From an uncultured Bryobacteraceae bacterium (GTDB lineage: Bacteria > Acidobacteriota > Terriglobia > Bryobacterales > Bryobacteraceae): 64,000 bases of DNA. The stretch's first letter is position 1, and each line of letters starts with the position of its first letter. The DNA lies in the NCBI GenBank assembly GCA_938003835.1, contig CALKXJ010000013.1, positions 1 to 64,000 on the forward strand, written 5' to 3'. The notes beneath the pieces are model-generated. The model did no database searches, had not been told where the DNA came from, and saw only the letters and a program-made list of their open reading frames with translations. A program made the translations under genes and the position numbers. Positions 17,574-17,990 of this stretch are shown here, one piece after another.

Positions 17574-17648
17574 TATCCTGAGGGCGGATGCCTCAAAGGT
17601 ACCAGCGGCCTCGCACCGGGTGGACAGCAGCGGGATAGTACGGCTTCG

Positions 17649-17664
17649 GTTCTGATTTCAGAAC
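17649..17664. promoter_or_regulatory. Palindrome upstream of the AT-hook gene promoter
   Basis: GTTCTGA-TT-TCAGAAC, a perfect 7-base inverted repeat with a 2-base centre, seven bases upstream of the -35 box. A related TTCTG/CAGAA pair recurs at 17730-17748. It is a probable regulator binding site. Confidence 0.5.
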
Positions 17665-17670
17665 AGGGTC

Positions 17671-17699
17671 TTGATTGAGCCCCTAAATTAGGGTATAAC
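17671..17699 (+). promoter_or_regulatory. Sigma-70-type promoter of the AT-hook gene, with an internal palindrome
   Basis: TTGATT (17671-17676), a 17-base spacer and TATAAC (17694-17699). The spacer contains CCCTAA-A-TTAGGG (17681-17693), a perfect 6-base inverted repeat in the classic position for a repressor or a spacer-distorting activator. Transcription should start near 17706, giving a leader of about 85 bases. Confidence 0.65.
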
Positions 17700-17729
17700 A
17701 ACACAGAGGGCCGCCGGGCCACAATGGAA

Positions 17730-17748
17730 TTCTGTTCCGCATTCAGAA
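17730..17748. promoter_or_regulatory. Second TTCTG/CAGAA inverted repeat, in the AT-hook leader
   Basis: TTCTG (17730-17734) and CAGAA (17744-17748) separated by nine bases, downstream of the predicted transcription start. The half-sites match those of the palindrome at 17649-17664, so one regulator could bind both sides of the promoter. Confidence 0.4.
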
Positions 17749-17789
17749 CGAGGCTCTGGCGGAGCCATACCCCCGCAGGGAGTCAGACG

Positions 17790-17990
17790 ATGGACGTTCA
17801 GAAAATGCTGGCCGAATTACGGCAGGAGCGCGAGCAAATTGAAGAGGCTATCATCACCCTAGAACGCCTGGCGCGCGGGCGCGGGAAGCGGCGTGGCCGG
17901 CCTCCCGCGTGGATGACGGCGGCCAAGAAGCGGATGAAGATGGAGGAGGCCAAGAAGGCCCCGGCCGCCTCCAAGACGGCGGCGAGCTGA
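17790..17990 (+). CDS. Small coiled-coil / AT-hook-like DNA-binding protein
   Basis: 66 residues. The first 28 form a charged helix with coiled-coil spacing (MLAELRQEREQIEEAIITLERL). A GRGKRRGRPPAW segment follows with the RGRP core of an AT-hook minor-groove binder, then a Lys/Ala-rich tail (KKRMKMEEAKKAPAASK). I recall similar short proteins in Solibacter-like genomes, but no function. The ATG at 17790 has AGGGAG upstream; a longer reading from 17724 would include the second palindrome and was rejected. A role as a nucleoid-associated or regulatory protein is inference. It is isolated, and convergent with the NamZ fusion gene. Confidence 0.7.
   Translation: MDVQKMLAELRQEREQIEEAIITLERLARGRGKRRGRPPAWMTAAKKRMKMEEAKKAPAASKTAAS

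Follow-up and report, generated by a model that had tools for sequence, protein, structure and literature searches.

A palindromic operator pair around the promoter of a small H-NS-like protein gene in Bryobacterales, and its probable XRE-type regulator

The system described here is of a known kind, that of an autoregulated helix-turn-helix regulator with paired operators. Like repressors of the XRE/HTH_3 type, its regulator has a palindromic operator at its own gene and probably an N-terminal helix-turn-helix. The best PDB profile match of this protein was DdrOC, with an E value of 0.053 that is not significant, and in the XRE protein the recognition helix is preceded by about 12 residues that DdrO lacks. 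The DdrO operator differs from the operator found here, TGTTCYGNNNNCRGAACA.

The arrangement of the operators recalls the two-operator loop at gal, formed by GalR, a protein not known to be related to the XRE regulator. In both cases two copies of one operator bracket a promoter, here at a near-constant spacing of about eight helical turns. Two sites of the same motif at near-fixed spacing around a promoter, the arrangement expected of a promoter-spanning loop, were found; looping at this locus would be the counterpart of that at gal. The product of the putative target gene shares a helical N-terminus and the RGRPPxW motif with the H-NS family, and differs from it in being 66 aa long and scoring below the Pfam cut-off. 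A literature search covering titles and abstract openings returned no description of this regulator, this operator or the pairing.

The operator pair and the 66-residue protein gene

The window, the whole stretch of 64,000 nucleotides that was analysed, is located on contig C13 of the 5.0-Mb genome of an uncultured Bryobacteraceae bacterium and has a GC content of approximately 67%. An earlier note on this DNA had described a near-consensus promoter split and surrounded by three palindromes in front of a 66-residue gene. The promoter is present as claimed: the -35 box TTGATT (17671..17676, + strand) and the -10 box TATAAC (17694..17699, + strand) are separated by a 17-bp spacer. The perfect palindrome upstream of it was confirmed as GTTCTGATTTCAGAAC at 17649..17664 (operator 1; this and the other palindromic elements are given without strand); it ends 6 bp before the -35 box, a position conserved in homologues. 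The TTCTG/CAGAA pair noted downstream belongs to a real palindrome, but had been read in the wrong register: the true one, GTTCCGCATTCAGAAC at 17734..17749 (operator 2), is a second copy of the first, lies in the predicted 5' leader and starts 85 bp from the start of operator 1. Two of the three palindromes claimed are copies of one operator, TGTTCYGNNNNCRGAACA, and bracket the promoter; the third is best attributed to chance (see below).

The 16-base pattern GTTCYGNNNNCRGAAC matches both operators exactly. When GTTCTGATTTCAGAAC was searched with up to three mismatches, just these two places were found in the window, each on both strands, and these four matches were reached in none of 100 shuffles. 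In the whole genome the 16-base pattern has 5 forward-strand occurrences, compared with 3 of the reversed-pattern control. By itself the pattern is not rare in this genome; what exceeds chance is the paired arrangement and its conservation.

The target gene (17790..17990, + strand) is real, since its product was matched at E <=0.001 in 52 of 61 genomes, the own genome included, where it is the only clear copy (next match, E 0.13). The relatives carrying it are mostly metagenome assemblies titled Acidobacteria, Bryobacterales or Bryobacteraceae. An in-frame ATG at 17724 would give a longer protein, but it is not where conservation begins: the homologues align from MD(V/I) on. The protein consists of an N-terminal helix, followed by RGRPPAW and a basic tail, an H-NS-like layout; an alignment of 27 chosen homologues has 17 invariant columns, among them RGRPP and the W two positions further along. 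A monomer model (mean pLDDT 78.8, pTM 0.48) places helices at residues 3-29 and 40-63 around an RGRPP turn. The Pfam H-NS C-terminal model was touched by 13 of the 27 members at E <=1 (best E 0.014) and AT_hook by one; the window protein itself reached 12.7 bits against the H-NS model, below the cut-off of 25.6. A PDB profile search with the small protein yielded no relative (best E 0.99, to another protein), the best NCBIfam match, a type III secretion chaperone model, was sub-threshold (18.4 bits, cut-off 70), and Pfam DUF7341 was also matched below threshold. The small protein resembles a minimal H-NS-like protein, a likeness short of established membership.

The upstream regions of 97 small-gene loci were reduced to 86 non-redundant ones, of which 85 were long enough for comparison (duplicates and the short L087 were dropped). 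A pair was called when two GTTCYGNNNNCRGAAC-like sites had a joint score of at least 20 of 24. The pair, which recurs in front of many Bryobacterales homologues, is present in 54 of the 85 regions, against 0.01% of shuffled upstream sequences; one region has a single site and 30 have none, two of which (L065 and L070) hold GTTCGG-type pairs slightly below the threshold. The site-to-site spacing is 82-87 bp in 52 of the 54 pairs, the set omitting L048, with a weaker partner at 87 bp, and L079, with one good site. For these 52 the standard deviation of the spacing is 1.45 bp, compared with 16.8 bp for the distance from site 2 to the ATG (range 38-126 bp). Comparison of intersite sequences equal in length (16 sequences) gave an average identity of approximately 36%, and yet the spacing stays within 82-87 bp, so that the spacing has been kept and the sequence has not. 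The same range was found in the 42 pairs left after dropping those with intersite DNA at least 60% alike. A later set gave 26 pairs at 30 loci of 28 genomes, 25 of them at 83-87 bp; it was searched with a looser pattern, GTTCNGNNNNCNGAAC, and came from 30 genomes that were not a random draw, all except G337 having an XRE match.

Conservation extends to positions that were not used for picking the sites. The four central bases of site 1 are A or T in 48-52 of the 52 pairs, a T precedes it in 48 and an A follows it in 50. Site 2 is looser: its four central positions are A or T in 38-50 pairs, with T before in 38 and A after in 21. An unrestricted scan of the whole intersite DNA placed the start of the -35 box 6-9 bp after site 1 in 51 of the 52 promoters. 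The lengths of the segments on either side of the -10 box compensate each other (r=-0.45, permutation p 0.0007) in 51 promoters, L072, which has no clear promoter, being left out and the -35 search being confined to 4-11 bp after site 1. Such compensation is what a constraint on the site-to-site distance predicts; it is suggestive only, as misplacement of the -10 box could yield the same.

The palindrome inside the spacer, CCCTAAATTAGGG at 17681..17693, does exist in the window, but as a control element it does not rise above chance. No copy was found in the homologous promoters, the best match outside the window agreeing at 10 of 13 positions, and only 2 of 52 promoter segments, those of the window and of L075, contain a perfect 6-bp arm, against 4.9% of shuffles. 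With a frequency at chance level and no kept counterpart in homologues, it was rejected as a third operator and is considered to lie outside the system; the idea of a promoter split by a functional palindrome falls with it. The comparison of homologous upstream regions that the earlier note had proposed found wide recurrence of the two operators but not of CCCTAAATTAGGG, and the specific control suggested for the small gene is strongly supported for two sites but not for the third.

Some further features of these upstream regions were observed. Of the 52 homologues, 26 have a GTAC word in the 60 bp preceding operator 1, compared with 19% of shuffles; in the window it is TAGTAC at 17636..17641, just upstream of operator 1, a weak candidate for an extra element. 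GTAC words also occur near extra GTTC palindromes in G014 (L187-L190). Homologues of the LDVDKML type have no GTTC pair in any of the 14 listed upstream regions. These homologues (L076, L077, L083, L088, L097 and others) carry GTACTACTAGGAC exactly in 5 cases and as a variant in most others, at a distance of about 120-175 bp from the start; this element may be bound by a replacement regulator. The small protein has nine matches in G034, and of six loci examined (L022, L173-L175, L180, L202) one has the full pair, one a single site and four none; most of the paralogues in this genome thus seem to be outside the regulator's control.

The XRE-type gene and its own operator

The five exact occurrences of GTTCYGNNNNCRGAAC in the own genome comprise the two at the small gene, one at C4:9940 and two in unrelated places (C7:86543 and C8:208500), in or near unrelated reading frames. 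The C4:9940 site is located between a gene which, from its sequence, we take to be ubiX-like and a divergently transcribed gene for an XRE-type helix-turn-helix protein of 260 aa (C4:10075-10854, outside the window). Matches to this protein were found in 35 of 61 genomes at E <=1e-30, in 125 of 150 genomes of the same family at E <=1e-60 and in 8 of 199 genomes across the phylum at E <=1e-20, the own genome being included each time. Judged by sequence, the operator TGTTCYGNNNNCRGAACA precedes the XRE gene in 33 of 36 cases, and in 90 of 98 in a larger set. The exact 18-base TGTTCYGNNNNCRGAACA occurs at 61 places in the 61 genomes, compared with 4 for the reversed pattern; an XRE gene follows within 450 bp at 21 of these places and a small gene at another 21, the other 19 being located elsewhere.

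The XRE genes mostly have a single site. Of the 65 XRE promoters that are clear, 55 have a gap of 17-19 bp between this site and the -35 box, 3 a gap of 7-8 bp and 7 a gap of 20-23 bp; for 25 of the 90 XRE genes with a site no clear promoter was seen. Compared with the gap of about 7 bp at the small gene, that of 17-19 bp at the XRE gene differs by approximately one helical turn.

The query XRE protein had no Pfam match above the cut-off and no NCBIfam match; its match to HTH_19, at E 0.0017, is below the cut-off. Among 29 members of the family HTH_31, HTH_19 and HTH_3 were matched by 28, 24 and 24 at E <=1, with best E values of 7.6e-6 for HTH_19 and 2.1e-5 for HTH_31. In the C-terminal half C206, W208 and C209 are nearly invariant and H221 is invariant in the 29 sequences, while Pfam, NCBIfam and profile comparisons gave no assignable family for this half; the near-invariant C-x-W-C at residues 206-209 is a possible redox or metal sensor. 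Peptidase_S24 was touched by 4 of the 29 members (best E 0.039), and a profile comparison with the LexA of the same genome gave a probability of 0.5%; an S24/LexA-like C-terminal domain is not supported by these comparisons.

A search of the own genome for a large regulon, allowing two mismatches, gave 69 forward places compared with 39 for the reversed control, and among the first matches listed any further targets were indistinguishable from background. The gene convergent with the XRE gene (L102:2375-2833, minus strand, in the own genome) belongs to a family of 152-aa proteins without a Pfam match. In 23 of 56 loci, though not in the own genome, genes of this family have a similar palindrome 35-120 bp upstream, often TTTCNGNNNNCNGAAC; two of the 19 exact operator sites located elsewhere (in G025 and G029) precede this convergent gene, which is a possible third target.

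Co-occurrence, covariation and the identity of the binding protein

The distribution of the sites was compared with that of the XRE protein in the 41 genomes with an examined small gene, 11 of the 52 matched genomes, those with weak matches, being left out. Both were present in 27 genomes and both absent in 6; the XRE protein occurred without the sites in 6 (G001, G007, G008, G020, G025 and G030, of 33 with XRE) and the sites without the XRE protein in 2 (Fisher p 0.004, kinship ignored). The last two, G017 and G035, have no XRE match at E <=1e-30 and are split into about 1030 and 780 contigs, yet are rated 96-98% complete.

Seven XRE proteins have the recognition helix VLINR; most others have IALSR or similar. 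In these seven genomes 12 of 14 half-sites at the XRE gene have G at operator position 5, as do 23 of 28 at the small genes. Position 5 is otherwise T or C: for the 91 other XRE genes G was found in 1 of 166 half-sites at the XRE gene and in 4 of 178 at the small gene. Counted by gene, the XRE gene's own site has G at position 5 in 7 of 7 VLINR cases compared with 1 of 83 others, the exception being G025, with a G half-site and no VLINR. G-type sites are present at the small gene in six of the seven VLINR genomes; G267 has none at the one examined. In the VLINR genomes, as in the own genome, the XRE gene and the small gene are on different contigs.

In a tree of 90 XRE proteins, in which bootstrapping had not fully settled, the seven VLINR proteins fall in a clade of eight with support of 100/99. 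The eighth member, G341, has IFINR and is nested within this clade as sister of G360 (99/88); T is found in 5 of its 6 half-sites, namely in both of those at the XRE gene and in three of the four at the small gene, and one still has G. The change may be read as one gain plus one loss, with helix and operator altered together each time, or as two gains, and so amounts to about two events in one clade. This covariation, in step at separate loci, suggests that the recognition helix sets the operator sequence, and is the strongest evidence for the XRE protein reading these sites. The XRE protein is the likely binder because the operator is shared with its own gene and because helix and operator covary; most probably, it is the protein that recognises the palindromes.

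The earlier note had proposed control by the gene's own product or by a second factor. A second factor fits far better, given the operator at 90 of 98 XRE genes, the helix covariation, and the presence of sites in 27 of 33 genomes with XRE and their absence from 6 of 8 without. If the small AT-hook/H-NS-like protein itself recognised the palindromes and controlled its own gene, this would accord with its DNA-binding-like sequence and with the frequent autoregulation of proteins of this type. RGRPP-type motifs bind the AT-rich minor groove, however, and not a 16-bp GTTC palindrome; six of the eight genomes that have an examined small gene and no XRE match also have no sites, as do four of the six paralogues examined in G034; and the sites occur at the XRE gene as well, where they covary with the XRE helix. 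Autoregulation by the small protein is judged unlikely, at a very low probability.

Even less probable are two other readings. GTTC/GAAC inverted repeats recall some LexA (SOS) boxes, and the genome has a LexA-like gene on contig C31, but none of the five GTTCYGNNNNCRGAAC places is on that contig and the covariation is with the XRE helix; LexA as the binder is judged very unlikely. The location of site 2 in the predicted leader would suit palindromes acting in the RNA as hairpins, whereas site 1 and the site of the XRE gene have the same motif upstream of promoters, and position 5 changes with a DNA-binding helix; we give this reading a similarly slight chance.

A proposed switch and the sign of regulation

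We propose, as a rather probable reading of these sequence data, that an XRE dimer binds TGTTCYGNNNNCRGAACA at its own gene and at the two promoter-flanking sites of the 66-aa gene, where a loop would repress until a signal arrives. The 260-aa XRE protein would occupy TGTTCYGNNNNCRGAACA as a dimer, one per palindrome. At its own gene the one site would serve autoregulation, and the usually single, in-phase site suggests a contact with RNA polymerase. The pair of dimers at the 66-aa gene, centred roughly 85 bp or some eight helical turns from each other, would probably touch; a loop would then be closed over the site of RNA polymerase and the gene held down. A signal acting on the C-terminal half of the regulator might release it, so that the level of the small H-NS-like protein would be set by the XRE switch. 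Some observations run counter to this model. The spacing varies over 6 bp, more than strict helical phasing would lead one to expect, and conservation is poorer at site 2 than at site 1. The 6 of 33 XRE-bearing genomes that lack the operator, the two genomes with sites but no XRE match, the 8 of 98 XRE genes without a site and the 19 of 61 exact sites located elsewhere go unexplained.

The sign of the regulation could be the opposite, since an upstream site in phase could equally mean activation. The XRE protein would then be an activator at both genes, contacting RNA polymerase from the site upstream of the -35 box, while site 2 would trim or limit expression. The gaps between site and -35 box, mostly about 7 bp or 17-19 bp and so one helical turn apart, speak for this, as does the mostly single site at the XRE genes; the site centres estimated from these gaps are about -50.5 at the small gene and -61.5 at the XRE gene. 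An activator, however, does not need a second site inside the predicted leader whose distance is nearly fixed; activation is the main rival of the repression reading and, in our view, the less likely of the two.

Returning to the repression loop, we tentatively suggest, at slightly less than even likelihood, that it forms a nearly dedicated switch of the Bryobacterales: the main shared duty of the undescribed XRE protein would be to maintain a promoter-spanning loop, by which the amount of a minimal H-NS-like chromatin protein is fixed, and recognition helix and operators would be co-evolving in a natural swap of specificity. The regulator, the operator, the two main targets and the natural change in DNA specificity can all be read from the sequence, which makes the mechanism directly testable. 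Members of the Acidobacteriota abound in soil. Should the small protein prove to be a nucleoid protein, the switch would control a chromatin component, and the titles and abstract openings searched contain no description of such control for this phylum.

Operators at other genes were also seen as lineage-specific features (L192-L195). They form pairs approximately 83 bp apart in G021, 86 bp apart in G003 and 73 bp apart in G035, where the genes near them encode FHA, PP2C and sigma-54 activator proteins.
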